From: Bacillota bacterium | GTDB taxonomy: Bacteria; Bacillota; Dehalobacteriia; UBA4068; UBA4997 | Assembly (NCBI GenBank): GCA_021771915.1 | Contig: JAETNY010000009.1 | Location: 1 to 40,037, forward strand | Length of the DNA stretch: 40,037 nucleotides | Direction of reading: 5' to 3' | Shown here: positions 316 to 38,750 of the stretch, one piece after another | Position numbering within the stretch: the stretch's first letter is position 1 | How the letters are laid out: every line of letters begins with the position of its first letter | Translations under genes and position numbers: made by a program | The notes under the pieces: generated by a model | Databases searched by the model: none | Told to the model about the DNA's origin: nothing | What the model saw: the letters and a program-made list of their open reading frames with translations, nothing else

Positions 316-3300
316 ATGCTGAAGAAGTTCAGTAAACTCAAAGCCGGCCTGCTGGCGCTTTCGCTGGCGATAATGCTGGCTTTGGCGCCAACCGGCACAG
401 CGCTTGCTGTGGACGCCTGGCTGCAACCCTCGCTGGACAAAATGCTGTCCTGGGGCGTTTTGAACGGCGACGCAAACGGCGACCTGCATATTAACGACCC
501 CATCAGCCGCGCCGAGTTTACCGCTATGGTCAACCGTGCCTATGGTTATGATGAAACTGCGCCCACGCCCTTTACAGATGTAGCGGAGCGCGCCTGGTAC
601 GCCGAGGATATCGCTATCGGCTACGGCACCGGCTATTTTAACGGCACATCGCCCACACTGGCCGAGCCGGAATCCTCCTTAACCAGAGAACAGGCCATAA
701 CGGTTCTGGCGCGCAATCTGCGTCTGGAAGAGGCCGCCGGCGAGGTAACCAACTTCCGTGACGGCCGCAATTTCTCCAACTGGAGCCGCGGCTACATAAA
801 AACCGCCGTCAACCGGGGGTTAGTCAATGGCTATGAAGACGGCACTTTCCGCCCGGGCAGCGATATCACGCGCGGCGAAATGAGCAAACTGCTGTCTGAC
901 GCTATCGGCACACTGGTGGATACGCAGGGTACTCACACGCTGGGCAGCGTTTGGGGCAACGTCACCATTACCACGCCTAACACCAAACTGCGCAACACCA
1001 CCATCGGCGGCGACCTTTACCTGGCCAGCGGCGTTGGTCTGGGCGGCGTGGAATTGGAAAATGTTAAGGTACTGGGGCGCATTATCGTGGCCGGCGGCGG
1101 CGAGAGTGAGGGCGGCGACGCCAGCATTTTAATGCGCAATGTAGACGCGCCGGAAATGGTCATCAACACCCTCTCCGGTCAATACATATCCGTCAGAGTG
1201 GAAAACGACAGTGAAATTGAAAACACCAAGGTGTATACCAACGCCTATCTAGAGGATAATACACGCAACCGGAGCGGTCTGGCTAATGTATATCTGGAGG
1301 GAGAGGAAGGCGCAATTTTCACCGTGGCCGGCAACATGAAAAATGTTGTTAATAAAACTCCGCGCTCCAAACTGACAGTTGGCCGCGGCAGTGTGGATAA
1401 ACTGACGATTGATGAAATGGCAACCGCCTCCACGCTGACCATTGACCGCGACGCCGTGGTTGATGAACTTAATCTGGACGCCGGCATTACCGTAAACGGC
1501 GACGGCGACATCGGTACGCTGAACGTCAGCGCCCCTGGCTCCAGAGTTACCATGCTGCCGGATAATATCGTTATCCGCCCCGGCATCACCGCCAACATTC
1601 ACGGGCAGGTTATGGACAGCGTTCTGGGCGAGGAATCTTCCAGCCAGCCACGTCTGCTTTCCGGCTATCCCAAGGGCGATGATATTGCTCCCACCACCAT
1701 TAACGCTATATTCTCGGGCAACAAGCAGGGTACGGTTTATTGGGCTATCACGCCGGAGATTAACGGCCCCGTTACCGACGCGGACACTCTGATTAAACCG
1801 CCCTCCTGGGGACCGACAATTACCCGTACCGGCAATCTGCGGCTGACGGCTTCTGATACGGAAGTAAGCACCAGAATTTCCGGTCTGGTTTCTGACGGTT
1901 CTTATTATCTGACCGCCGTACTGCGCGATGAACGGGAGCAGACCAGCCCACTGAAACATATCCTGTTCACCACGCCGGACAACACCATACCCAACTTTAC
2001 CTCAGGTTATCCTTACATGAGCAAAATCACCAATACAGACGCTCAGGTTACAGCCATGACCACCAAGGATTGTTACCTGTATTGGGCGGTTCTGCCGCAG
2101 GGCAGTTCTGCGCCCACCGCCAATGATTTTCTGGCTAACGCCATCACTGGCAATCTGGGCTTCGGCAGTGTTTTCATGACCAAAAACGAACCGGACACTT
2201 TGTATGTAAACGACGAGTTGCTGGAGGAATTGAAAACCTACGATTTGTATTTATGGCTGACTGACGCTGACGCCGGTCTGCAATCCAATGTGCGCAAGCT
2301 GACTTTCACCACTGTGGATAAAACGCCGCCGGTATGGGTTAACGATTTGCGCGTTAAACAGGAACAACCCACCAACATCGGCTTTATCGGCGCGCTGAAT
2401 GAAAATTGTACCGTTTACTGGGTGGCTGTGCCGCATGGCACCATTTATCCCAAACCGCAAATAACCGATAATGATAATAATAATGATGATGAAAACAGCG
2501 ATAATGAAGACGAGGTAATCGTGGTGGATTTGGCTAGCGAATACGCCAAAATGCAGATTACCTATGGTCTGAACGCTTTACGCAACGGTCAGGTTGCCGC
2601 GCGCGGAAACACTGATTTTAATATGAATGTCAGCGGACTGACCGTGCAGACGACTTATGACATTTATTACGTGGCGATGGACTCCGCCGGCAACTATGAA
2701 GAAACGGCGCATATGATTACGGCCAACACGCTGGACAACATTGCTCCCACCGTAACCCAGGAGTTTACCCGTTTCTCCAGTGACGATACCAGCCGGCCCT
2801 ATGCCAATACTGCAATCAAGCTTATTTTCAGCGAGAACGTAATGTATGCGGATACCAATACCACTTTCCATGCGCTTTATCAGAATGTTAAGGACGCGCA
2901 AACCACCGCAGAAATTGAAAAAGCCAAGAATGAAATGGCTGCCGCGTTGCGTGAAACTATCTGGTTATACAGCGCCTCCACCGGCAACCGCCTGCCCGTT
3001 CGCGTTAACGAGCGCACAGACGATGACCGGCTGAATGAAGACTGGGTAATTGATTATCGTAACGTCACCATGGAGTTGGACGAGGGCAAGCTTATTCTGA
3101 CTTTCCCCTCTGAACCAGACGTTTCCGACCCACTGAACAGCGCATTGAATTTGGCGGCCGGCAACAGCTATTATTTTGAACTGCATGATATTACCGATGC
3201 GTCCACCAACCATAACCGTATGGGCGTTACGGAGTTGCCGCGCTTTACAACCATTGCCGCGCAAGCCTGGTTGGAACAGCTGAACATTACCAAGCTGGAA

Positions 3301-5226
3301 TATCAGGGAGAAACGCTGGACGCGGATATTGTTTTCTCAATCACGCCGCTTTCCACCTCCACCGTGGAGGACACTGTGGACTGGGATATGCTGCTCTGGC
3401 TGGATTGCTCCGCCGACTTTGAGTTATACACACGCAGCCATCTGGCTGACGCCGCCCCAGACCCGGAATGGCAGAAAGTAACCGATAATCTGTTCTCGAT
3501 TACTTCGCCCAGCGGCCAGTTTGAGGGCTTAAGCCTTAACCGCACTATCAATCAACAGGACGATTTCCCTCAGCTAAATGAAAGTCTTGAGGACGGCCAT
3601 GTTTATGAATATGCTGTACACTTTGTTAACATCGGCAACCTTTCTGACCGCAAAACCTGGAGCCAGCGCGTTAACCTCTGGGTATCGGTAATGGCCGGCA
3701 GTTCCGTCAGCCTGGGCAATCTGGCTTCCAATGTATCCGCCAGCTATGAAGATATGGTGGCTAATGAAGAAGTCAGCGATATTGGTACCCCGGCTCAGTT
3801 CCGCCCCTATAAGCAGTTCGATGACCAGCGTGCGCCGCATTTTGAAAACGGCCACCCGGAATTTGAACCAGGCGATACTTCCACCTATATGAACCTGATG
3901 CTTGACCGCACTGGCACAGTTTATTATGTTATTGCCCCGGTAGGCGTAATAACCACCAGGGACCAGGATAATCAGGAGCCAAATCTGGCCGATGTGCCAA
4001 CCAACGGCGGCAGCGGCGATTATCTTGTTAAAGAACCTACTTACCGTGAAATTGTTACGCCAACCAGCTATACCAATCCCAGAATTAAAAAGGGCAATGT
4101 AACGGTTGGCACCAGCGTTAACCCCATTCTGGTAACGGAATTAGAGCCGGAAACCCAGTATTATGCTTATCTGGTTACCAAAGGCGCGGGTCAGGTATAT
4201 TCTGACGTTTACCTTTATACTTTCCGCACCGAAGCAGTGGTGCGCCCGGTTATCACTCTGGATTTGAGCAACCCGACGGTTACCATTACCGCCGACCGGC
4301 AGAGTAATGTTGACTATCTGCTGATTAACTATGACGCCAATATGGACTCACGCTTAACCAAACAGTTCAAGGACGTGGCCGATTATGACAAAAATCCGCC
4401 ACAGGAATACCTAACTGACTTTACGGTACTTGAGGCCATGAACACCGACGTTACCAATAACAACCGCTCCACCGGCAGCGTTTTTGACTTATATGCCACG
4501 CAAAAAGCCCAGGAGGATATGGCCAACTATATCCGTGCCACCACGCCCAACGGCACTAGCATTATCGGCAAGGGTTCAACCGCGATTAACGCCGGTCAAT
4601 CCATATCCATAGATTGCAGCCGCCAATGGAACCTTTCCGGCGGTGCGCAATACGCATTCCTGGCTGTTGGCCGCAGCACTTTGGGCTCCGGCGATGCTTT
4701 CCGCGCTATCTGGCCGGTGGAACTGAAAGATGACACGCCGCCAATGGTGCAGGCGATTAATCATACTCTGGAATTTGTGCAGGGTACTAATAACACCAGA
4801 GTTTCCGGTGAAATTACCATTCAGTTCACAGAGCCTATCTATCGTATTGATAAAGGTACTACGCCGCCCACATTGCAGAATATTGACGCTGGCCCACTGC
4901 GCTCGCCTGACCGTCTGAACAGCTTCGTCAGCATTCAAAATCTGGTTAGTTCCAAAAACCCGGCTTCACCGGACTCTATCATAAAATACGTAGAGTATCC
5001 CGGCCAGGTTAACCAGCCGGCGCAGGTTTTACAGCTCAGGCTGAACAATGCGCCAACCGGCACCAACATCACATGTTACAACAATATTTGTGATGCAGCC
5101 AGCAATGTAAACCAGACTTCTTTCAACGTATCCATAAAAATTGTGCCAAGAACAGTTGGTCAGACAACATTATATGATATTGAAGTAAATATTCCACCGC
5201 AGTGGGACGCGCGCACCAACCGTTAA
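316..5226 (+). CDS. Large S-layer-homology (SLH) surface protein with Ig/Fn3-like repeats
   Basis: This 1636-residue exported protein has a signal peptide at residues 1-31 (KK start, long hydrophobic core, cleavage after ALA). Three SLH domains follow at about residues 33-200, with motifs such as ISRAEFTAMVNRAYGY and GYEDGTFRPGSDITRGEM. They should hold the protein on pyruvylated wall polymer. Residues ~205-430 are rich in short G/N/V-containing strands and look like a right-handed beta-solenoid. The rest is a string of beta-sandwich modules recognisable by recurring phrases (TVYWAI, LYWAV, TVYWVAV, TVYYVIAP and DKTPP or DDTPP linkers). A D/N/E-rich insert sits near residues 715-732. The ATG follows AAAGGATGA. 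A strong terminator follows the stop, so the gene is probably monocistronic. The ligand or function beyond surface display is unknown. Confidence 0.88.
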   Translation: MLKKFSKLKAGLLALSLAIMLALAPTGTALAVDAWLQPSLDKMLSWGVLNGDANGDLHINDPISRAEFTAMVNRAYGYDETAPTPFTDVAERAWYAEDIAIGYGTGYFNGTSPTLAEPESSLTREQAITVLARNLRLEEAAGEVTNFRDGRNFSNWSRGYIKTAVNRGLVNGYEDGTFRPGSDITRGEMSKLLSDAIGTLVDTQGTHTLGSVWGNVTITTPNTKLRNTTIGGDLYLASGVGLGGVELENVKVLGRIIVAGGGESEGGDASILMRNVDAPEMVINTLSGQYISVRVENDSEIENTKVYTNAYLEDNTRNRSGLANVYLEGEEGAIFTVAGNMKNVVNKTPRSKLTVGRGSVDKLTIDEMATASTLTIDRDAVVDELNLDAGITVNGDGDIGTLNVSAPGSRVTMLPDNIVIRPGITANIHGQVMDSVLGEESSSQPRLLSGYPKGDDIAPTTINAIFSGNKQGTVYWAITPEINGPVTDADTLIKPPSWGPTITRTGNLRLTASDTEVSTRISGLVSDGSYYLTAVLRDEREQTSPLKHILFTTPDNTIPNFTSGYPYMSKITNTDAQVTAMTTKDCYLYWAVLPQGSSAPTANDFLANAITGNLGFGSVFMTKNEPDTLYVNDELLEELKTYDLYLWLTDADAGLQSNVRKLTFTTVDKTPPVWVNDLRVKQEQPTNIGFIGALNENCTVYWVAVPHGTIYPKPQITDNDNNNDDENSDNEDEVIVVDLASEYAKMQITYGLNALRNGQVAARGNTDFNMNVSGLTVQTTYDIYYVAMDSAGNYEETAHMITANTLDNIAPTVTQEFTRFSSDDTSRPYANTAIKLIFSENVMYADTNTTFHALYQNVKDAQTTAEIEKAKNEMAAALRETIWLYSASTGNRLPVRVNERTDDDRLNEDWVIDYRNVTMELDEGKLILTFPSEPDVSDPLNSALNLAAGNSYYFELHDITDASTNHNRMGVTELPRFTTIAAQAWLEQLNITKLEYQGETLDADIVFSITPLSTSTVEDTVDWDMLLWLDCSADFELYTRSHLADAAPDPEWQKVTDNLFSITSPSGQFEGLSLNRTINQQDDFPQLNESLEDGHVYEYAVHFVNIGNLSDRKTWSQRVNLWVSVMAGSSVSLGNLASNVSASYEDMVANEEVSDIGTPAQFRPYKQFDDQRAPHFENGHPEFEPGDTSTYMNLMLDRTGTVYYVIAPVGVITTRDQDNQEPNLADVPTNGGSGDYLVKEPTYREIVTPTSYTNPRIKKGNVTVGTSVNPILVTELEPETQYYAYLVTKGAGQVYSDVYLYTFRTEAVVRPVITLDLSNPTVTITADRQSNVDYLLINYDANMDSRLTKQFKDVADYDKNPPQEYLTDFTVLEAMNTDVTNNNRSTGSVFDLYATQKAQEDMANYIRATTPNGTSIIGKGSTAINAGQSISIDCSRQWNLSGGAQYAFLAVGRSTLGSGDAFRAIWPVELKDDTPPMVQAINHTLEFVQGTNNTRVSGEITIQFTEPIYRIDKGTTPPTLQNIDAGPLRSPDRLNSFVSIQNLVSSKNPASPDSIIKYVEYPGQVNQPAQVLQLRLNNAPTGTNITCYNNICDAASNVNQTSFNVSIKIVPRTVGQTTLYDIEVNIPPQWDARTNR

Positions 5227-6008: not shown

Positions 6009-6037
6009 TTGACAGCGTAAAACCAATGTATTATAAT
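6009..6037 (+). promoter_or_regulatory. Consensus sigma-A promoter of the serpin gene
   Basis: TTGACA (6009-6014), 17 bases, TATAAT (6032-6037), placing the transcription start near 6044. This rules out the upstream ATG at 6026 as the translation start, since it lies between the two boxes. Confidence 0.85.
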
Positions 6038-6064
6038 GAAAGAAAAAACATAGAGGTGATAGTT

Positions 6065-7345
6065 ATGAACAGAAAGCTGATTATGCTGTTATGCACAGTA
6101 ATGCTGCCAACATTGTTGCTGGGCTGCATGCCAGGCCAAACCGGCCAGACAAATCTGATGACAGACATTCAGACAAACCAGACCAGGGAAATACCCACAA
6201 ACAAAATACCGATGGACACAATTCTGTTAAGCACCACCGTCCAGCCAACTATCAGTGATTTTTCCGTAAAACTTTTTCAGCAAAGCCTGGACGAAAAGCA
6301 AAATACTTTAGTTTCGCCCTTATCTGTTTTGCTGGCGCTGGCCATGACCGCCAATGGCGCTGAGGAAAACACACTGACGCAAATGGAAGCTGTTTTTGGC
6401 GCGCCTTTAGACAGTTTGAACCTGTATTTGCAAACCTATGCCGCCCAACTGCCCCAAACAGAAAAATGCAAACTTAGCATCGCCAACTCCATTTGGCTGA
6501 AAACCGACCCGGATATCAAAGTTAAGCAGGATTTTCTGCAAACCAATGCCGATTATTACAATGCCAGCGTTTATCAGGCACCTTTTAACACCAAAACCCT
6601 GAAGCAGATTAACGAATGGGTTGAAACAAACACCGATGGCATGATTGATAAAATTTTAGATGAAATTTCGCGCGACGCAGTGATGTATTTAATCAATGCG
6701 CTGGCCTTTGACGCTGAATGGGAGGAGCCTTATACCGATATTCAGGTGCGCGAGGATATTTTTACCACCACCGATGGCCGGGAACAAAAAGTAGATTTTA
6801 TGTATGGCAGTGAGTATCAATATTTGCAGGACGAAAACGCACAGGGCTTTATTAAATATTATAATAACCGTGATTATGCCTTTGTGGCGCTGTTGCCTGA
6901 TGAGAACGTCAGCGTGGCCGAATATGCAGCGGAACTGAACGGTGAAAAGCTTAACAGAATATTGAGTCAGCCCCAGTGTGTGGAGGTACATACGGCTATT
7001 CCCAAGTTTGAAAGTGAATATACGTTGGAAATGAGCCAGCTGCTGCAAAAAATGGGCATAGTTGACGCTTTTGACCCAGACCGCGCCGATTTCAACGGCA
7101 TGGCCAGCTGGCCGGCAGACACCAATCTTTATATTGACCAGGTTCTGCATAAAACCTATATTTCCGTAAATGAACGCGGTACCAGAGCCGGCGCGGTAAC
7201 CGCCGTGGCCATGAACAAGGCCACCTCCATTCGCCCGGTAGAGTTCAAAACAGTTTATCTGAACCGTCCGTTTGTATATATGCTGATTGACAGCAGAAAC
7301 AACCTGCCCCTGTTTATAGGCACGGTTATGACTGTAAAAAATTAA
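6065..7345 (+). CDS. Serpin-family protease inhibitor lipoprotein
   Basis: This is a 426-residue serpin exported as a lipoprotein: residues 1-21 end in the lipobox LLGC, with Cys21 as the lipid anchor, followed by a T/Q/N-rich linker. The serpin fold starts near residue 57 (SDFSVKLFQQSL, NTLVSPLSVLLALAM). Later landmarks are NSIWLK, INEWVETNTDGMIDKIL and the C-terminal signature LNRPFVYMLIDSRNNLPLFIGTV split over two strands. The reactive-loop hinge NERGTRAGAVTAVAM has the conserved Glu and Gly and small residues at P12-P8, as in inhibitory serpins. Counting from the hinge Gly puts P1 at or near Ala in NKATS, suggesting an elastase-like target; this is inference. The ATG at 6065 follows GAGGTGATAGTT and sits 20 bases downstream of the predicted transcription start. 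Its role may be protection against host or rival proteases at the surface. Confidence 0.9.
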   Translation: MNRKLIMLLCTVMLPTLLLGCMPGQTGQTNLMTDIQTNQTREIPTNKIPMDTILLSTTVQPTISDFSVKLFQQSLDEKQNTLVSPLSVLLALAMTANGAEENTLTQMEAVFGAPLDSLNLYLQTYAAQLPQTEKCKLSIANSIWLKTDPDIKVKQDFLQTNADYYNASVYQAPFNTKTLKQINEWVETNTDGMIDKILDEISRDAVMYLINALAFDAEWEEPYTDIQVREDIFTTTDGREQKVDFMYGSEYQYLQDENAQGFIKYYNNRDYAFVALLPDENVSVAEYAAELNGEKLNRILSQPQCVEVHTAIPKFESEYTLEMSQLLQKMGIVDAFDPDRADFNGMASWPADTNLYIDQVLHKTYISVNERGTRAGAVTAVAMNKATSIRPVEFKTVYLNRPFVYMLIDSRNNLPLFIGTVMTVKN

Positions 7346-30373: not shown

Positions 30374-31597
30374 TCACTCCGGCAGTTGATAAACCAGCAG
30401 AAATTCCTTATCTATATTCTGCCTGCAACGACAAAACAGCTTAAAGTGCAGTTCATTGCCCTCCGCACCGCTAAAACTGAAATCCGGTGTGGGGCTGCCC
30501 ATAGGCATGCCGCTGCTCAAATATTGCCAGTATAATTCAAAATTCTCCGCCTTAATCTCATAATCAGTATTGGCCTGCAAAAACGCCTCCGCTTCCGCCT
30601 TAACTTCCGGCGTTACCAGCAGTTTCTCCATGTTCTGCAAGGTTCCGCTCTGCTTATCATAAAGGTCAAAGGAGGCTCCGTCGCCCCAGAGTATAAAGCG
30701 CTCGTTTGCCCACCAAACATATTTTCTGGCGTATTCGTACTGATAAATCTCCGCCGCCTTATATTCGGTAACCGCGCCGGTTTTATCATTAATGCAGACC
30801 GCGCCAATCTCATCATCAGAAATCCAGATGTTTTCACCCTGCACAAAAGGCTCCGGCAAATCGACAATCATAATTGTATGCACACAATATGTTGGCACAA
30901 CGCCGCTCTGTCCGGCCGCCGGAACATAAGCGTTTAAGTCATAACAAAAACTCAACGAGCCGCTGCCGATACCGCCAACCTGCACCAGATAATTGCCGGC
31001 CGGCGTCTGCTGTACGCTTAAAGCAAAAGGCTCATAAAAACTGGCAGAATCAGTCAATGATGGCAAATCCAGCTTGCCCAGCAGCTGACCGTTCTTGCTG
31101 AAATCGCCGGTCAGCTGGTCCAGCTTAAAAACCTCGCCGCTGCTTAAAGTATATTTCAGTTTGGGCGAGGTCAGCCAAACCGCATTATTGCGCCAGTCCA
31201 AATCATATTGCAGCAGAGTTTCCGTTATAAAGCGCAGTGGCACATAGGTTATGCCGCGGCTGATAAAAGCCGCCTGTTCCAGTTCATACCTGCTGTGTTC
31301 TATCGAATTTTCTTTCTCACGGACAACTTCCGGGGTTTTTGAGCCAATTTGCATGGTCAGAATACCGCCGTCTGGCAAATAAGCAGTAATTGTCTGTGTT
31401 TTTTCCTCCCATTCCACCGCTCCGCCCACGGTTTCAAACATGCTGCGCAGCGGCAGATAAGTATAACCACCTCGTTCCAAACCGGTCGTTACGCGCTCGC
31501 CGTCCAGATATACCGGCACATTGGCCGCCAGACAGGTCTGCGCCGCGCCAAACGTCAACACTACCAACAGCAGCATTGTCAAAAAAAGTTTCTTCAT
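30374..31597 (-). CDS. Secreted copper-amine-oxidase-N-like paralogue 1
   Basis: The 407-residue protein has a signal peptide (MKKLFLTMLLLVVLTFGAA, cleavage after LAA). Two CuAO-N-type repeats follow: VPVYLDGERVTTGLERGGYT with YLPLRSMFETVGGAVEWEEK, then FISRGITYVPLRFITETLL with WRNNAVWL. Despite the Pfam name, such domains are generic clostridial surface modules, and no oxidase catalytic domain is present. The rest (about 160-407) is a beta-rich domain shared with the next three genes (TPAGNYLVQVGG, WWANERFILWGD, TPEVKAEAEAFLQ). It is the last gene of the operon. Its function is unknown. Confidence 0.8.
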   Translation of the reverse strand: MKKLFLTMLLLVVLTFGAAQTCLAANVPVYLDGERVTTGLERGGYTYLPLRSMFETVGGAVEWEEKTQTITAYLPDGGILTMQIGSKTPEVVREKENSIEHSRYELEQAAFISRGITYVPLRFITETLLQYDLDWRNNAVWLTSPKLKYTLSSGEVFKLDQLTGDFSKNGQLLGKLDLPSLTDSASFYEPFALSVQQTPAGNYLVQVGGIGSGSLSFCYDLNAYVPAAGQSGVVPTYCVHTIMIVDLPEPFVQGENIWISDDEIGAVCINDKTGAVTEYKAAEIYQYEYARKYVWWANERFILWGDGASFDLYDKQSGTLQNMEKLLVTPEVKAEAEAFLQANTDYEIKAENFELYWQYLSSGMPMGSPTPDFSFSGAEGNELHFKLFCRCRQNIDKEFLLVYQLPE

Positions 31598-31617
31598 TTC
31601 ACTATCACTCCTTAAAG
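31507..31617 (-). repeat. Repeated 5' cassette, copy 1
   Basis: A segment of about 110 bp covers the ribosome-binding site (AGGAGTGATAGTGAA), start codon, signal peptide and first mature residues. It is nearly the same at 32822-32933 and 34091-34202. Identity falls off further into the genes, so these 5' ends look recently copied or kept alike by gene conversion. Confidence 0.75.
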
Positions 31618-31620
31618 TAG

Positions 31621-32913
31621 TTATATTGCCTCAGCAAACATCTCGTTAAGCGGCAGCTGTATGCTCATACTATGAGTCGCATAATTTTCGCTGTTTGGTA
31701 CATAATACCGCAACTCCAGGCTAAAATAAAGCATACCGTCTTCGTAATGCGAGAACGCAAGACAGGGATAAGATGTGTACGGCGGCCTTTCTTCCTCCTG
31801 CCCAAGCTGCTGCCAAAATGCCGCCAACTCCTCCGGTTGATTGTAAACTTCTGGAGCAATTTTCAGCAGCAGTTCATTAGCACGCCGCTTAACATCATCG
31901 GTAAGCAGCAAATCGGTTATCGGCCGGCTCTGCTCTTTCTGCAAATCATAAAGCACAAAATCCCGATAATCACCTAACAGCAAATAGCGCTCAAAACCCG
32001 TCCAGTAACAATAAACCGGCTTTTCCTGCACCGCCTTGCCCAGGGCTTTCGCCTGTATGGCCGCCGTGTCATAATATACAGCCTGCACCGGGGAGTTATC
32101 CTTGATATGCCAAAGCGCGCTATCGCCATTCAGCCAAAACTCAGCGCCATTGCGCATATAATTAGGCGCTTCCACCCGAAAACTGCCGCGCCAGTCCTGT
32201 GAGGCCGCATAAACCTGCCCGTTTGCGACGTCAACAAAATAATTCGTCACCGCCTGCTGCTGCGGATACGGCTCTTGGATAATGGAGTAGTCTACCAAAT
32301 AATTGCCGTTTTCTGTTCGCTCAACCCTCAGGCAGGCTATCTCATTAGGCGAATCGGGTCGTTCCGGCAGAGAAAGCTGCGCCAAAATCTGCGCTTCTTG
32401 CTGCCCGGTTTGCCGGCGGCTTAAAATACCGCTGCTCAAATCCAGCAAATAAACCTCACCGTTAGCAATCCAGCCGTCCCAGAAAATTTTGTTGGTATAA
32501 ATATGCTGTTCATTGGTATCAAGACAATCCGCTCCCAAATTCAACAGAAAAATTAATGACTCAAGCGAAACCCAGGTGCTGCCATTGCGCAGAAGCGGCG
32601 CGCCATCAAAACCATAATGGCGAACAAAACCGTCCGGCCAAAATCTGCCGGCAGTGTTCTGGCCAATAGTCATATGCAGCTTGGAATCGTCCGCCATGGT
32701 AATGACTACGGTTTGCGTTTTGGCGTCCCATTCCAGCTTAAGCCCCAGCGCCTGCAAAGCAGCGCTTATCGGCACATAAACCTCTCCCTCATGCTCCCAG
32801 CCAGTCAACTGCTTATCATCAATATACACCGGCACATCGGCCGCCAGACAGATCTGCGCCGCGCCAAACGCCAACACCATCAACAGCAGCATTGTCAAAA
32901 AAATTTTTTTCAT
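31621..32913 (-). CDS. Secreted copper-amine-oxidase-N-like paralogue 2
   Basis: The 430-residue protein has a signal peptide almost the same as paralogues 1 and 3 (MKKIFLTMLLLMVLAFGAA). One clear CuAO-N repeat follows (VYVPISAALQALGLKLEWDA, KTQTVVITM); a second region (LLRNGSTWVSLESLIFLLNL) is diverged. The C-terminal part keeps the family layout (NGNYLVDY, RYLLLGDYRDFVLYD, LLLTDDVKRRANELL) but is the most divergent of the set. I start at ATG 32913 after AGGAGTGATAGTGAA; an upstream in-frame ATG lacks a ribosome-binding site. Confidence 0.75.
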   Translation of the reverse strand: MKKIFLTMLLLMVLAFGAAQICLAADVPVYIDDKQLTGWEHEGEVYVPISAALQALGLKLEWDAKTQTVVITMADDSKLHMTIGQNTAGRFWPDGFVRHYGFDGAPLLRNGSTWVSLESLIFLLNLGADCLDTNEQHIYTNKIFWDGWIANGEVYLLDLSSGILSRRQTGQQEAQILAQLSLPERPDSPNEIACLRVERTENGNYLVDYSIIQEPYPQQQAVTNYFVDVANGQVYAASQDWRGSFRVEAPNYMRNGAEFWLNGDSALWHIKDNSPVQAVYYDTAAIQAKALGKAVQEKPVYCYWTGFERYLLLGDYRDFVLYDLQKEQSRPITDLLLTDDVKRRANELLLKIAPEVYNQPEELAAFWQQLGQEEERPPYTSYPCLAFSHYEDGMLYFSLELRYYVPNSENYATHSMSIQLPLNEMFAEAI

Positions 32914-32933
32914 TTCACTATCACTCCTCAAAA
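32822..32933 (-). repeat. Repeated 5' cassette, copy 2
   Basis: This is the second copy of the ribosome-binding-site plus signal-peptide cassette. Its closest match is copy 3, including the AAAATAATTTA stretch just upstream. Confidence 0.75.
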
Positions 32934-32937
32934 TAAT

Positions 32938-34182
32938 TTATTGTAAAGTGTAACTAAGCGGAAATACCTGCCGCGCCTGACCGCCGTCCGAAGTTGCATA
33001 ATAGCCGCAAATCAGCTCAAAATTAAGCTTGCCGTTCTCCTCGCCTGTAAATTTCAGATATGGTACCGGGTCAACTTTATAAGCGGCGCCCAGCCCCTCC
33101 CAATAATAATCAGCATTATTTACATCAAAGGTAATACTGGAATTATCCGCCATGAAATTGTTAGCTTTTGCCTTAACCTCGTCTGTCAGCAGTAGCGGCA
33201 CCAAATCATGTCCGGTTTGGTTCTGCATATCATAAAGCACATAGCCGCCGCCATCGCCCAGTAAAATCAGCCGGCCGGCCGTCCAGCGAACAGAGCCGCA
33301 GGCGTACTCATCACCGGTTACCTGGCTGGCCCAAGCCTGCGTGTCCACCTGATTAATCTGACCGCTGGCCTCATCAATGCAGAAATTATGGCTGTATCCG
33401 TTCAGCCAAACCTTGCCCTCACTACACACAATACCCGGCAAAAAATCGTCGAGCATAGATGTATTACAATCAGAAAGTCCTTTTTGTCCGTCGGCGCTGA
33501 TCCAGCAGTTCCATTGCAGGCTATAAGCCATAAAGCCCAGACTAGTGCCGCTCCCATCAAGCAGATAGCTGCCGGCCGGCGTACGCCGCACCTCAAATCC
33601 ATAAACATGCTGGGCGTGATACCCGGCATAGCCTGGCACTTTGGCCTGATTGGTGATTAGCTTATCATTCAGCCAAAGTTCGCCGTTGGCCATGTTCAGG
33701 ATATATTTATCCTCACCCTGCGTATATTCCAGCCGCGGCTGGGTGATATAAACCGCATTATCGCGCCAGTCCACCTCATAACCAAGCACATCATCACTTA
33801 TAAAACGCAGTGGCACATAAGTTATACCCCGACTGACAAAAGGCGGTTGCTCCATATAAGGATAACTCGGGTTATCATACTCTTCATCACCAATTCTGTA
33901 GTGATATTGCGCGTCCGCATAATTATTTCCCACCTGCATGGTAAGCACACCACCGTCCGCAAAGGTGGCGATAATCTTCTGCTCCGGCTCGCTCCATTCC
34001 ACGCTTGCGCCGACGGTTTCAAACATGGTACGTAGCGGCAGATATGTATAACCGCCTCGCTCCAAACCAGTCGCCACGCGCTCACCCTCCAGATACACCG
34101 GCACATCGGCCGCCAGACTGGTCTGCGCCGCGCCAAACGTCAACACCATCAACAGCAGCATTGTCAAAAAAAGTTTCTTCAT
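32938..34182 (-). CDS. Secreted copper-amine-oxidase-N-like paralogue 3
   Basis: The 414-residue protein has a signal peptide, then two CuAO-N repeats (VYLEGERVATGLERGGYT, YLPLRTMFETVGASVEW and FVSRGITYVPLRFISDDVL, WRDNAVYI), closely matching paralogue 1. The C-terminal domain has RTPAGSYLLDGSG, LILLGDGGGYVLYDMQ and LLLTDEVKAKANNFM. It lies 24 bases upstream of paralogue 2 and 41 downstream of paralogue 4. AGGAGTGATAGTGAA precedes the ATG. Confidence 0.8.
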   Translation of the reverse strand: MKKLFLTMLLLMVLTFGAAQTSLAADVPVYLEGERVATGLERGGYTYLPLRTMFETVGASVEWSEPEQKIIATFADGGVLTMQVGNNYADAQYHYRIGDEEYDNPSYPYMEQPPFVSRGITYVPLRFISDDVLGYEVDWRDNAVYITQPRLEYTQGEDKYILNMANGELWLNDKLITNQAKVPGYAGYHAQHVYGFEVRRTPAGSYLLDGSGTSLGFMAYSLQWNCWISADGQKGLSDCNTSMLDDFLPGIVCSEGKVWLNGYSHNFCIDEASGQINQVDTQAWASQVTGDEYACGSVRWTAGRLILLGDGGGYVLYDMQNQTGHDLVPLLLTDEVKAKANNFMADNSSITFDVNNADYYWEGLGAAYKVDPVPYLKFTGEENGKLNFELICGYYATSDGGQARQVFPLSYTLQ

Positions 34183-34202
34183 TTCACTATCACTCCTTAA
34201 AA
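34091..34202 (-). repeat. Repeated 5' cassette, copy 3
   Basis: This is the third copy of the cassette covering ribosome-binding site, start and signal peptide; see 31507-31617. The first codons of paralogues 1 and 3 are almost the same at the DNA level. Confidence 0.75.
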
Positions 34203-34223
34203 TAATTTATATAAACGCCTTTT

Positions 34224-35420
34224 TTATTTAGGCAGCTTATAAACCAGCGAGTACTCCTTATACACATTGCTCAAACCGTAATTATCATTTTTGCGATAGT
34301 TGCAGATTAAAGAGAAATAAAGTTTTTTGCCCTCGGCATAGTTAAAATGCAGCTCCGGCACCGGGTCAGCCATTGGCAGGCCAATATTGAGATAACTCCA
34401 ATACCATTCAAACTCGCTATCACTAATCGGAAAATCCCACTCAGACTGCAAAAATTCCTCGGCCTCGGCCTTAACCTCCGGGGTCAGCAAAAGCGGCGTT
34501 AAATCCAGCAGAGTTTCCTTTTTGCGGTCATAAAGCCGCAGACCGCTCAACAACATATAGCGCTCGTTGGCCCACCAGCAAATCCACTGCCCCTCGCCCG
34601 TGAAACGGGTAATCTCGCCGGTGCTATCGTTAACGCAGATTGAGCCGTCGTCGTCCGCCAGCCAGAGACTTTTCCCCTGCCAGAAAGGTTGCGGCATGGG
34701 CTCAATAATACTATGCACACAACAGGTCTGCACCTCGCCGCCGGCCGCCGGTATCCAGGCCGCCAGCTGATAGCTGAAGCTTAAAGCGCCGCTACCCATA
34801 GCCCCGGCCTGAAACAAATAATTGCCGGCCGGTGTTCTGTGTATGCCAAACTTATCCGGCGGATACCAGCTGACTGGCTCGCCGGCAGAGGGCAAATTCA
34901 GCCGGCATAATTCGCAGCCGTTAAGATATAAAACGCCCGTTAACAGGTTCAGCGTAAACCTTTCGTCAGACGACAGGTTATGGTATAGCTTTGGCGCATT
35001 CAGCCAAACCGCATTGCCGCGCCGCTCCAGATTATAGCCCATAACCATTTCGTCCGCCGCCAGACTTAATGGCATATAAACAACGCCCCCACGGCTAAAC
35101 GGCGGCTGTTCCGCATAAATTTCAGCCGCATATTCCCCTTTATCTAGCCGGCCCTCCGTCTGTCCCATCTGCATAATCAAAGTACCGCGCAAAGGCAAAA
35201 CGGCCTTAATCTGATTATCCGCAAAAGCGGCCTCCGCGTCCGCCAGGCAGAAAAATTCCCACATTGGCAAATACAAGTCGCCGTCCTGTTCAAGCGCCGT
35301 CGCCACGCGCCGCCCGTCCAGAAACACCGCCGCGCCGTTCTCCGGCAGGGCAACCGTTGGATTTAGCGTGGCAACGCTAAAGTTCAGCATCATTAACACC
35401 GCCATAAAAAATTTAACCAT
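34224..35420 (-). CDS. Secreted copper-amine-oxidase-N-like paralogue 4
   Basis: The 398-residue protein has a different, shorter signal sequence (MVKFFMAVLMMLNFSVATL) but the same architecture. VFLDGRRVATALEQDGDLYL and FSRGGVVYMPLSLAADEM are the two CuAO-N-like units, followed by a C-terminal domain with TPAGNYLFQAGAMGSG, WWANERYMLLSG and LLLTPEVKAEAEEFLQSEW. The C-terminal half is very close to paralogue 1, which suggests duplication of the pair. GAGTGATAGTTAA precedes the ATG. Function unknown. Confidence 0.78.
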   Translation of the reverse strand: MVKFFMAVLMMLNFSVATLNPTVALPENGAAVFLDGRRVATALEQDGDLYLPMWEFFCLADAEAAFADNQIKAVLPLRGTLIMQMGQTEGRLDKGEYAAEIYAEQPPFSRGGVVYMPLSLAADEMVMGYNLERRGNAVWLNAPKLYHNLSSDERFTLNLLTGVLYLNGCELCRLNLPSAGEPVSWYPPDKFGIHRTPAGNYLFQAGAMGSGALSFSYQLAAWIPAAGGEVQTCCVHSIIEPMPQPFWQGKSLWLADDDGSICVNDSTGEITRFTGEGQWICWWANERYMLLSGLRLYDRKKETLLDLTPLLLTPEVKAEAEEFLQSEWDFPISDSEFEWYWSYLNIGLPMADPVPELHFNYAEGKKLYFSLICNYRKNDNYGLSNVYKEYSLVYKLPK

Positions 35421-35492
35421 TTAACTATCACTCACAATCTCCCACAATTTATAAATTTATTTTAGCACCATTTGGGCAGATAAGCAACATTA

Positions 35493-35981
35493 TCACAAAT
35501 CAACAGTAAAAATAACCTGCAAATGCTCTTTATCAGCATTATCATAAAACGGCGTAATACCGGCGCAGCTTTCTAGCAGATAATCCAAATCGGTAACATA
35601 GGGCGGCAAATCCGCCGTATCCGTAATTTTGGGGAAATTCTGCCGTACCTGTTCCGCCAGGCTGAAATGACAGAGCCAGTAGGCAATATCCTTAACCCAG
35701 ATGTGGTCTTTCAGCGTGATAATTTCATTTTCCGTATCCACCAGAAACTCGCCGCCCACCAATATATTCAGCGGCGTTCGATTGGTTTCTCGCCATTTGC
35801 CGCCGCCCAGACAAAGCTGGATACCATACCAGGCCTTGTCCAGAGCACAACTGCGCGGCGTGCCAAAAAGCCGCTCCTCAAACTCCTCCAGCATATAATC
35901 ATAACGCTCCGCCTCCGGTCTGGCACAAAGTTCCGCCAGTTCCTTATCCGTCAGCGCATATAAAACTCCCAAACGTGACAT
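35493..35981 (-). CDS. DUF1877 (YfbM-like) protein
   Basis: This 162-residue protein has no signal peptide and is the only apparently cytoplasmic product within the exported-protein operon. LGVLYALTDKELAELCARPE at the start and LDKAWYGIQLCLGGG in the middle match DUF1877/YfbM. It starts 10 bases after the preceding gene's stop. DUF1877 has no firmly established biochemical function; such genes are often near immunity-like or surface loci. Confidence 0.75.
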   Translation of the reverse strand: MSRLGVLYALTDKELAELCARPEAERYDYMLEEFEERLFGTPRSCALDKAWYGIQLCLGGGKWRETNRTPLNILVGGEFLVDTENEIITLKDHIWVKDIAYWLCHFSLAEQVRQNFPKITDTADLPPYVTDLDYLLESCAGITPFYDNADKEHLQVIFTVDL

Positions 35982-35991
35982 ATTAATCTCC

Positions 35992-37257
35992 TTAATCTGC
36001 TGCCGTTGCGTCCGGCGCCAGCTTCAATTTTACAACATAATCATCAGCCAGTATTAAAAGGTGCTGGCCGTCCGGCGATATAGCGCCCTTTTCAAAATTC
36101 CACAAACCCGGATAATTTTCTGTCAAACCGTCCGTTTCTGTGCCAAAAATAATCTTGTTGGCATTATCCGCATAATTACAAGCCACAATCCGGCAAGCGT
36201 CCGTGTTATCTCCGGCAAAATGCTCGGAAAAATAAATTGTATCGCCATAGGCCGCCAACAGGCCGCCGCCGTTATTATCATCAGGCGTACACTCGCCTAA
36301 CACTCTGCCGTTCAGATTGACAATCTGATAATGCGTGCCGTCCTCGCAAACGGCACACATTACAACATAATCACCAGCCACATTTTGCACCGGCTGCACT
36401 TCCTTATAAGCAAGCCAGGAAACGCTGGTCGGCCATTCGGCATATACGCGGCGCTGCTGCACCTTAACTTCGCCGCTGTTCACTGGCAGGGTTACCTCCA
36501 GCAAATCGCCGCTGTCAGTACCCAGCAACAGCCAGCGGTCCGGCCTTTGCACCGTGGGCGGCATAAACAGGCACCAGGAGCAGTTCATTTTGGCCAGCCT
36601 GACCTCCATACCGGTTTTTTCATCATATAAATTGATAAAATGCGTTATACGCTGCAACTCCTTAGGGTCCTGCTCAAAGCGAGTTAACAGATACCGGCCA
36701 TCGCCCAACCAAAACGCCTGGTCATCTCTATTCAGTTCGAGGCTGTCCGGCACGGCAAATTCCTGCGCCTGCCCGGTAACATTATCATAAACCAGAAAAG
36801 TATGTTTTCTTTGATTATAAAGCACCAGCTGCTGACTGGCCGACAGATAATAGCCGCTTAAATAACAATCATTTTCATATAAACTATCCTCCGGCCAGAC
36901 ACAAAGCTGTTCCGGTTCCGCTCCGTCCGCCATACGGAAAATTTTGCCCTGCCAACCGTCAGCTGTTCGGCTAACGCCATAAAGCAAATAGTCCGTATCA
37001 TTATAATAGTAAGCAGCTTCCAAATCAAAGCTTATAGCCTCGTCGTCTGCTCCCGGCTCGCCGTCAGGCCATTTAGCGTCCGGCAGCCCCGGCACCTGTG
37101 TAACCTGAACAACCTGCGCAACCTTTTCGGCCGAACGCTCAAGCTTTGCCGACTGCTCGGTTTCCGCCGGCGGCTCTTTGCCCAAATCCAGCCAGAACAG
37201 CAAACCACAGGCCACGCACAGAACAAACGCAAACGTGAAAATCATTTTTGTTTTCAT
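35992..37257 (-). CDS. Membrane-anchored extracytoplasmic propeller-like protein
   Basis: The 421-residue protein has an N-terminal hydrophobic anchor (MIFTFAFVLCVACGLLFWL), a charged linker and a beta-rich domain. Repeated strand patterns (YLLYGVSRTADGWQGKIF, QLVLYNQRKHTFLVYDN, AISPDGQHLLILADDYVVKL) suggest a beta-propeller. It is a paralogue of the next upstream gene. Its ATG overlaps that gene's stop (TAATG). Whether Cys in VACG is a lipobox is doubtful. Function unknown; possibly binding or sensing at the surface. Confidence 0.65.
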   Translation of the reverse strand: MKTKMIFTFAFVLCVACGLLFWLDLGKEPPAETEQSAKLERSAEKVAQVVQVTQVPGLPDAKWPDGEPGADDEAISFDLEAAYYYNDTDYLLYGVSRTADGWQGKIFRMADGAEPEQLCVWPEDSLYENDCYLSGYYLSASQQLVLYNQRKHTFLVYDNVTGQAQEFAVPDSLELNRDDQAFWLGDGRYLLTRFEQDPKELQRITHFINLYDEKTGMEVRLAKMNCSWCLFMPPTVQRPDRWLLLGTDSGDLLEVTLPVNSGEVKVQQRRVYAEWPTSVSWLAYKEVQPVQNVAGDYVVMCAVCEDGTHYQIVNLNGRVLGECTPDDNNGGGLLAAYGDTIYFSEHFAGDNTDACRIVACNYADNANKIIFGTETDGLTENYPGLWNFEKGAISPDGQHLLILADDYVVKLKLAPDATAAD

Positions 37258-38450
37258 TAATTAGTCAGCTCCGTTTCCGCCATAATTTTCGCCAAAGGCA
37301 AACGCATAGTATAACAGTGCCCTCTTAGCATCAACTCATTTCCGTCCGGGCTAACAGTACCGCCAAAGTAAAAATAATAAGGATTTTTGGCCGTCCGACT
37401 GTTATAAACCAACTCCCAATCGCCTGATATATAATCATAACTCCAAACCTGCCCATAATGCTTATCCGGTTTTTGATAATTGTAATGATAATATATCGGA
37501 AAGAACATTTTATCACCATAGCAGCCCAGAAGTTTAATATCATTAGCATATCTGGCTTCGCCAATATGGTTGGAAACAACATGCCGGCCAATCTCCTTAT
37601 TTGCAGCCAAATCAATCACCTGATAAACGGTTTCATCATCACAGTAGATTGTGAGCAGAACGCGCTCGCTTTCAGCGCCAGGCACCGCCAGCACGTCATT
37701 GTATGAAATAAATTCTGCCGCCGCCGGCCACTCCTGCGCACAATGATGAACCTCCGTTTCCGCGTCAGCCCCGGTCAGTTTAAGCACACATAAATCCCCT
37801 GCATCGCTTAAAAGCGGCCAAAGCCCGGTGGAAGTCTGCCCACAATCTCGCAGCCAACCGCCGTTCAACTCCGCCAAAAACTGCTCCTCTGCCCCGGCTT
37901 TGTCATAAAGGCTCAAACGCAGGCGCTCATTCGCCATACTTCTCCCCAGAAGATACTGTTCGCCGCCCAGCCAGATTACTCTGTCTTTTGCGCTCAAACT
38001 AAGTTCCTCCGGCATTTTTACCTGCTCAACATCGCCCGACTGCACGTCATAAAACACAAATTGCTGCTTAATCTGAGTATATAGCGCGCATTTGCCATAC
38101 TGTGGCAGATATGAGGAATAAAACAACCACTCGTCTTTAGGGGTCATCTGCTGATAAACCAGACGGGCAGCGCCGTCTTTCAGCCTGAACAGCAGGCGGT
38201 CACTGCCCTGCGCCAAACCAACACTTGCATACGCCAGCCAGTCATTCTCACCCAAATAATAGCAATCATACACAAACATTGCGGCATTAATCTCCTGAAC
38301 AGTATCGCCCTGATAATATTCTGCCGGCTGCTCCAGCAACAGCGGAGAAAGCTGAACCGTCCCGGTTTCCGTTTCCTGCTTTTCAGCGCAGCCGGCCAAC
38401 AGCAGCGCCAAGGTCAGCAACAAAAACATCGCCATAAAAACTTTTTTCAT
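37257..38450 (-). CDS. Propeller-like lipoprotein
   Basis: The 397-residue protein has a clear lipoprotein signal (KKVFMAMFLLLTLALLLAGC) and a beta-rich domain resembling the downstream paralogue. Shared phrases include QQFVFYDVQSGDVEQVKMP, VYQVIDLAANKEIG and TVSPDGNELMLRGHCYTM. I chose ATG 38450, which follows GGTGATAGTG; the upstream ATG at 38462 would place the ribosome-binding site inside the gene. It is the first gene of a probable seven-gene operon running to 30374. Confidence 0.7.
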   Translation of the reverse strand: MKKVFMAMFLLLTLALLLAGCAEKQETETGTVQLSPLLLEQPAEYYQGDTVQEINAAMFVYDCYYLGENDWLAYASVGLAQGSDRLLFRLKDGAARLVYQQMTPKDEWLFYSSYLPQYGKCALYTQIKQQFVFYDVQSGDVEQVKMPEELSLSAKDRVIWLGGEQYLLGRSMANERLRLSLYDKAGAEEQFLAELNGGWLRDCGQTSTGLWPLLSDAGDLCVLKLTGADAETEVHHCAQEWPAAAEFISYNDVLAVPGAESERVLLTIYCDDETVYQVIDLAANKEIGRHVVSNHIGEARYANDIKLLGCYGDKMFFPIYYHYNYQKPDKHYGQVWSYDYISGDWELVYNSRTAKNPYYFYFGGTVSPDGNELMLRGHCYTMRLPLAKIMAETELTN

Positions 38451-38487
38451 CACTATCACCATTTTCTGTATTTATTATGCTATAAAT

Positions 38488-38516
38488 ATTATAACACTGA
38501 AAAAATCTTTTTTCAC
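38488..38516 (-). promoter_or_regulatory. Possible promoter of the exported-protein operon
   Basis: On the minus strand: GTGAAA (38516-38511), 17 bases, TATAAT (38493-38488). The -10 is perfect and the -35 weak. It lies about 38 bases before the first start codon of the seven-gene array. Confidence 0.4.
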
Positions 38517-38606: not shown

Positions 38607-38711
38607 ATGCCGGAAGAAAATGAAAGAAAAGACGTTCAAAAAGCCATGGCTTACACGGCCTCGGAACTTAAAGCGCTAATTGACGCTTATATATCCGGCG
38701 CACGGCAATAG
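38607..38711 (+). CDS. 34-aa ORF of unknown function
   Basis: The ATG follows AAAGAGGCCGATAATT. The peptide begins MPEENERKDVQKAMAYTASE and ends LKALIDAYISGARQ: a charged, helical, soluble peptide. A TATAAT at 38578-38583 is suitably placed but its -35 is poor. A terminator follows eight bases after the stop. It stands alone between two minus-strand operons. I recognise no family. Confidence 0.5.
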   Translation: MPEENERKDVQKAMAYTASELKALIDAYISGARQ

Positions 38712-38718
38712 AGAGAAA

Positions 38719-38750
38719 AAACCACCCTCGCGCATTTGCAAGGGTGGTTT
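38719..38750. terminator. Bidirectional terminator
   Basis: AAACCACCCT (38719-38728) and AGGGTGGTTT (38741-38750) form a 10-bp stem. On minus it is followed by TTTTTT and ends the fumarase operon; on plus it ends the 34-aa ORF transcript. Confidence 0.85.

Follow-up and report, generated by a model that had tools for sequence, protein, structure and literature searches.

A tandem array of exported stalk-and-head proteins with near-identical leaders and divergent bodies in an uncultured gut genus of the Bacillota

The window analyzed here is a stretch of 40,037 nucleotides (positions 1 to 40,037, forward strand, of contig JAETNY010000009.1, assembly GCA_021771915.1) from a Bacillota bacterium of the lineage Dehalobacteriia; UBA4068; UBA4997. 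Between the genes fumB and glyA it carries an array of seven co-oriented open reading frames (ORFs), all on the minus strand (30374-38450), which in order of transcription are WD2, WD1, DUF1877, P4, P3, P2 and P1. The four P genes encode exported proteins with an N-terminal stalk and a common C-terminal domain (the head). The array is best read, with a probability of about 0.5, as a genus-specific variable surface repertoire in which the bodies of the proteins are reassorted by homologous recombination within short shared leaders, and whose heads are likely to bind ligands. The evidence that carries this reading is the discordance between the histories of leaders and bodies, together with a few genes in which the exchange seems to be caught in the sequence.

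Leaders and bodies

The leader of a P gene is a segment of about 100 nucleotides that contains the ribosome site (an extended Shine-Dalgarno sequence) and the signal peptide. Among P1 (30374-31597, minus strand), P2 (31621-32913, minus) and P3 (32938-34182, minus) the leaders are 91-95% identical over 105 nucleotides, and the bodies share 28-40% amino acid identity. (In the pairwise leader table, values of 1.00 that came from alignments of 2-4 bases were disregarded.) The three genes are at least 90% identical between about -20 and +80 relative to the start codon, that is, at 31518-31617 in P1, 32834-32933 in P2 and 34103-34202 in P3, all on the minus strand. Farther into the genes, identity is at background within about 100 nucleotides of the ATG for P2 and declines more gradually (about 180 nucleotides) for P1-P3. 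P2 begins with ATG; a TTG at 32931 is also open. The fourth gene, P4, is at 34224-35420 (minus).

Relatives of the window genome were located by a scan with the neighboring dCMP deaminase gene. They are uncultured Peptococcaceae metagenome-assembled genomes from animal guts (herbivore and bird hosts), one of them Candidatus Avidehalobacter gallistercoris, and the window genome groups with them, near Candidatus Avidehalobacter; the handles G001 to G008 are used for individual relatives where needed, and G000 for the window genome. In a tree of the bodies, built without the signal peptides, P1 and P4 (alpha clade) fall with nad3 of G005 and G006, P2 (beta clade) with G007 P5 and nad2, and P3 (gamma clade) with nad1 and the glyA-adjacent genes of G005 and G006, most of these groupings having support of at least 95. 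Since the P bodies share clades with genes of G005 and G006, the bodies predate the split of these species. The clade mates in G005 have leaders that are just 68-80% alike. Leaders that are alike on bodies that are old imply either that the leaders have been homogenized or that bodies have been swapped behind them. The idea that the four P genes all arose by recent tandem duplication was rejected on the basis of these shared clades; only the leaders look recent.

Several genes appear to record individual events. In G007, the nearest relative, P1 comes directly after P3, and P2 is absent at that position. Up to +42 of the G007 P1 gene, seven of the eight sites diagnostic for P1 versus P2 are of the P2 type, and from +61 on nearly all sites are of the P1 type, with few scattered exceptions. 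The simplest account is that this gene is a P2-type leader fused to a P1 body, with a crossover at +43 to +60 within the signal peptide (about 31537-31554 in the P1 leader of the window). On the same account, recombination between two leaders would remove one whole gene or, in the opposite direction, insert one. The beta-clade genes of G005 and G006 are 95-97% identical in the leader and then about 50% identical from about codon 34, as a replacement of the body would produce. Two neighboring copies in G001 have leaders that are 97% identical and bodies that are 39% identical. P3 shows a different signal: when its body in the window is set against that in G007, 4 of 315 third positions are changed, compared to 144 of 1378 in the flanking genes (Fisher p 1.7e-9). 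P1 and P4, which neighbor it, are more divergent than the flanks in the same comparison. The low divergence of P3 fits an exchange between lineages.

Variation at the fumB-glyA site and across genomes

The number of P genes between fumB and glyA varies. The window and G007 each have four, G001 has three, and G003, G008 and G002 have a single one. G005 and G006 have one P copy next to glyA and a group of three or four P genes with one WD gene beside an NAD-synthase-like gene; the two-gene WD unit is located elsewhere. The placement of P, WD and DUF1877 genes in these two genomes indicates that modules joined in the window stand apart in relatives. The G002 contig C210 (L051, 4487-6481) also contains a P relative broken by a stop, with another PF07833 frame after it; the relative is a decaying copy.

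A profile of the P C-terminal domain detects 1 to 6 copies per genome in all nine genomes of the genus and no copy in the 26 genomes covered from the rest of the order. Among 398 genomes of the phylum there was one weak match, in G155, which belongs to another Bacillota family. The G155 protein has a PF07833-like stalk and the C-terminal domain (P profile E 7.6e-5), and its C-terminal domain has a 37% identical relative in G120, of the same family as G155. The G155 gene (contig C1, 3692270-3693440 region; L175, 7268-8440) adjoins another PF07833 protein. A strict restriction of the architecture to the genus was rejected once these distant homologues were detected in G155 and then in G120. Judged by the profile matches, the P architecture is older and wider than the genus, and the expansion alone is genus-specific.

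Protein-level divergence has been compared between the window and G007. The ratio of nonsynonymous to synonymous substitution rates (dN/dS) is 0.19-0.31 for P1, P3, P4 and WD1 and 0-0.054 for the flanking genes; WD2 gives 0.40 with dS saturated. By this measure the protein sequence of the array is evolving fast. A first-pass annotation of the window, made from its sequence alone, had likened the locus to diversifying ones and proposed a count of paralogues in related strains. That description agrees with what is found: species vary at fumB-glyA in how many copies and which genes they carry, dN/dS is far above that of the flanks, and leaders and bodies have discordant histories.

Stalk and head of the P proteins

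The stalk corresponds to PF07833, the family named for the N-terminal domain of copper amine oxidase. It is found in P1 (E 7e-16, 58.5 bits), P2 (E 3e-11, 43.7 bits) and P3 (E 2e-16, 60.4 bits), all above the curated cut-off of 24.2 bits. P4 scores 12.5 bits (E 0.14), under that cut-off; at first pass such repeats had been ascribed to all four secreted proteins, and in P4 the stalk is weak. P4 aligns over its full length with the family and is counted in it because of that alignment and its C-terminal domain. Across the aligned P members, 15 of 16 have PF07833 at E of 1 or better. An AlphaFold2 model of P1 (built with 16 family members; predicted local distance difference test score, pLDDT, 86; predicted template modeling score, pTM, 0.77) provides structural confirmation of the assignment, since the N-terminal domain of Escherichia coli copper amine oxidase (1qaf) fits onto residues 45-131 with Z 9.4 and a root-mean-square deviation of 2.0 over 76 residues at 21% identity.

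PF07833 is frequent in cell-wall hydrolases (PMC4137172), and the PF07833 domain of Paenibacillus PaSOD-1 has been analyzed as a homodimerization domain (PMC10432803). A sequence search of solved structures gave weak matches only, to PaSOD-1 in the stalk region (8imd, E 0.002) and to a cathepsin D (E 0.05). The stalk is likely to be wall-associated or dimerizing. The window genome also contains about 18 more genes that match the P profile in the N-terminal (PF07833) part only, and among these proteins there are, by sequence, likely amidases and glycoside hydrolases, one with a CAP domain and one with leucine-rich repeats; several look like enzymes associated with the wall.

The remaining residues, about 260 in each P protein, match no Pfam or NCBIfam family. 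The common C-terminal domain that had been noted at first pass is well defined, as its profile recovers all four copies in the window with E 6e-85 or better. It was also said to have no recognizable name, and this is borne out: there is no match to a Pfam family, enzyme families included. In the P1 model, the head (residues 144-407) is an all-beta fold of about five repeats, each of four strands, with a single helical insertion, and the best structural matches are to many propellers, numerous and tied at Z 7-8. The model is suggestive of a small beta-propeller.

Upstream propellers and DUF1877

The first two genes of the array, WD2 (37257-38450, minus) and WD1 (35992-37257, minus), had been described as propeller-like paralogues, and they are 28% identical. 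WD1 (model pLDDT 80, pTM 0.79) gives 565 matches in the PDB at E of 0.001 or better, with 7-bladed propellers on top at template modeling (TM) scores of about 0.45-0.6, and its model is clearly that of a 7-bladed propeller. Structure prediction, which had been suggested as a check, gave an unambiguous propeller for WD1 and a fold that is propeller-like only, at Z 7-8, for the P heads. On a possible common ancestry of P heads and WD propellers, comparison by hhalign yields a probability of 60% over just 60 columns. By sequence, WD1 has a membrane anchor without a lipobox and WD2 is a lipoprotein of the propeller family with a lipobox (LAGC). WD2 starts at an ATG, with a further in-frame ATG at 38462; its counterpart in G007 is a substituted version, 39.5% identical.

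The cytosolic DUF1877 protein (35493-35981, minus) was correctly named, with PF08974 at E 3e-22 and 79.8 bits (cut-off 22) covering profile positions 1-163 of 163. With 98% identity and dN/dS 0.053 between window and G007 it is better conserved than any other gene of the array, and it is missing from six of the nine genus genomes. The single DUF1877 gene of G005 sits in a different PF07833 array, one that adjoins a lysS-greA pair (both names taken from sequence), so that DUF1877 accompanies PF07833 arrays in two distinct chromosomal locations. This second array is kept in two species (G000 contig C7, 1240-6077, L139; G005 contig C88, L160), with DUF1877 in G005 and without it in the window genome.

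Layout and flanking features

All seven ORFs and the spacings given for them at first pass were reproduced. In order, the intergenic gaps are a TAATG overlap (WD2/WD1), 10, 72, 41, 24 and 23 nucleotides. Genes for fumA/fumB-type hydratases lie upstream of the array and glyA lies downstream; beyond glyA come a dCMP deaminase gene and wecB (UDP-GlcNAc 2-epimerase), both identified by sequence. A consensus scan detects a strong terminator-like hairpin of 13 pairs with a T run after fumB (38719-38750, minus), which would set the array apart from fumB, and a promoter-like site with an extended -10 (TG.TATAAT) upstream of WD2 (38488-38516, minus). With these two features, one transcript for the whole array is plausible; terminator-like matches across the region are at chance level (11 found, 10.8 expected). 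No Rfam match to an RNA element was obtained in the window.

The gap between fumB and the array also contains a 34-codon open frame on the plus strand (38607-38711; MPEENERKDVQKAMAYTASELKALIDAYISGARQ) with GAGG ahead of it, which may be due to chance. Elsewhere in the window there is a full serpin (PF00079, E 5e-90) at 6026-7345, close to a 1636-residue SLH-domain protein at 316-5226.

A proposed mechanism for surface variation

The P proteins, as stalk-plus-head molecules, and the two larger membrane-anchored propellers would be positioned at the cell surface or in the wall, and the genes of the array are probably co-expressed. Propeller heads usually bind ligands or partners, and the heads of the P proteins most likely bind extracellular ligands. 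A near-identical leader would keep translation and export signals constant for every copy while the heads change, and the same leader could double as the homology for recombination, presumably of the RecA type. Divergent bodies could then be gained, lost and exchanged between lineages, or moved between loci, behind the same leader. More tentatively, and at a little under even odds, the repertoire may be always on and co-expressed, with whole bodies swapped behind the common leader by ordinary homologous recombination, bodies moving between species and loci, and no recombinase, inversion or phase switch involved. In this monoderm gut commensal, surface propellers would then behave as cassettes.

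Alternative explanations

Several observations weigh against such a variable repertoire. Of the diagnostic sites to the left of the proposed G007 crossover, one in eight (+33) disagrees. All the genomes are single, mostly fragmented metagenome assemblies, so every chimera rests on one contig. The Z of 7-8 for the P heads is in the range that unrelated models reach, and the Foldseek TM scores are just 0.2-0.27. Strong positive selection, sought by dN/dS, was rejected, as no whole gene and no 50-codon window has a value above 1, and relaxed constraint would fit the dN/dS pattern too. A dispensable, fast-drifting surface family, in which duplications and gene conversion of the leaders would follow simply from recombination of tandem repeats, variety not being selected for, would account for dN/dS being below 1 everywhere, for the species that keep a single P copy at fumB-glyA, and for the stop-interrupted frames among WD and P relatives, including the G002 copy. 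This explanation is nonetheless rather unlikely: ratios of 0.19-0.31 still mean constraint, at least one P gene is retained in nine of nine genomes, and the old clades persist alongside each other in different species. Misassembly, in which short reads joined the wrong copies at repeated leaders and so generated apparent chimeras and missing genes, is improbable. All relatives are indeed metagenome assemblies, and in some, such as G004, contigs end near P genes. However, the pattern occurs in three species groups, leaders within a genome differ at several sites and are not exact repeats, the tract of low divergence in P3 lies within one gene and needs no misjoin, and the likeness of the P1-P3 leaders on the single contig of the window cannot arise by a misjoin between species.

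Two functional alternatives have also been weighed. The array could be an operon for nutrient capture or carbohydrate processing whose propellers bind or cleave a specific polymer, with variation that tracks diet or host. Propeller folds do include glycan-acting proteins, an oligogalacturonate lyase and BtuG are among the propeller matches, and the hosts are herbivores and birds. Such a function is distinctly unlikely, given that no carbohydrate-active family exceeds its cut-off (CBM_X2, at E 0.1, is the only trace), that Pfam and NCBIfam identify no transporter or hydrolase in the array, and that the propeller matches are many and tied. The first-pass annotation had compared the locus to defense or immunity loci, and a role of DUF1877 as the cytosolic immunity or signaling part might be suggested by one small cytosolic protein amid variable surface proteins and by its recurrence with PF07833 arrays at two chromosomal sites. 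This comparison did not hold up. None of the seven proteins has a PADLOC match at E of 0.01 or better, PHROG gave no match of value for the array proteins, and Pfam and NCBIfam detect neither a defense match nor a toxin domain in the array, such as the exchangeable one beside an immunity gene in polymorphic toxin-immunity systems. DUF1877 itself is the least variable gene of the array, is absent from six of nine genomes, and is not treated as immunity in the two open-access papers found to name it. A defense or toxin-immunity locus, rejected on these results and on the conservation of DUF1877, is thus highly improbable.

If the array is a variable surface repertoire, it has implications beyond this genus. 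Surface variation through a shared 5' region is known mainly from phase-switching pathogens, and the sequences suggest that an uncultured genus of gut commensals, which appears to keep reshuffling its surface display, does likewise with a set of genes that look co-expressed. Commensals would then have a testable means of altering their binding or display with no dedicated recombinase, and there would be a new target for asking which ligands (host mucus, diet polymers or phages) drive the change. The analysis also provides a structural guess for a domain that has no Pfam name and is retained by all sequenced members of the genus.

Comparison with known systems

Like other surface proteins of Bacillota with PF07833, the P proteins have a signal peptide and a PF07833 module. 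In those proteins the module is fused to many different outer domains, whereas here the same unnamed C-terminal domain recurs along a tandem array, with an expansion in one genus and homogenized leaders. G155 shares the P architecture and G120 matches the C-terminal domain of G155, but each of these genomes has one convincing copy and there is no tandem array around the G155 gene. The WD1 model resembles Sec12, YncE and other WD40-like 7-bladed propellers; unlike them, it belongs to no Pfam propeller family above cut-off (PD40 at E 0.024, in one member).

The closest mechanism is that of the Vpma and Vsp systems of Mycoplasma, multigene families of surface lipoproteins with a conserved 5' region and signal sequence, divergent bodies, and recombination at the 5' region (PMC2268961). 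In these systems a site-specific recombinase inverts genes before a single promoter, with just one of the genes expressed at any time (PMC2268961). A conserved 5' region common to divergent genes is also a trait of the P genes, at the leader and body identities given above. In contrast, the array genes are all on one strand and seem to be co-transcribed, and what is observed from one species to another is the deletion or replacement of genes. The array contains no inverted repeat of 24 nucleotides or more that would serve phase inversion, and there is no recombinase among the named neighbors (fumA, fumB, glyA, dCMP deaminase and wecB), the remaining genome not having been searched. The array works partly like Vpma and Vsp and is not a member of that group.

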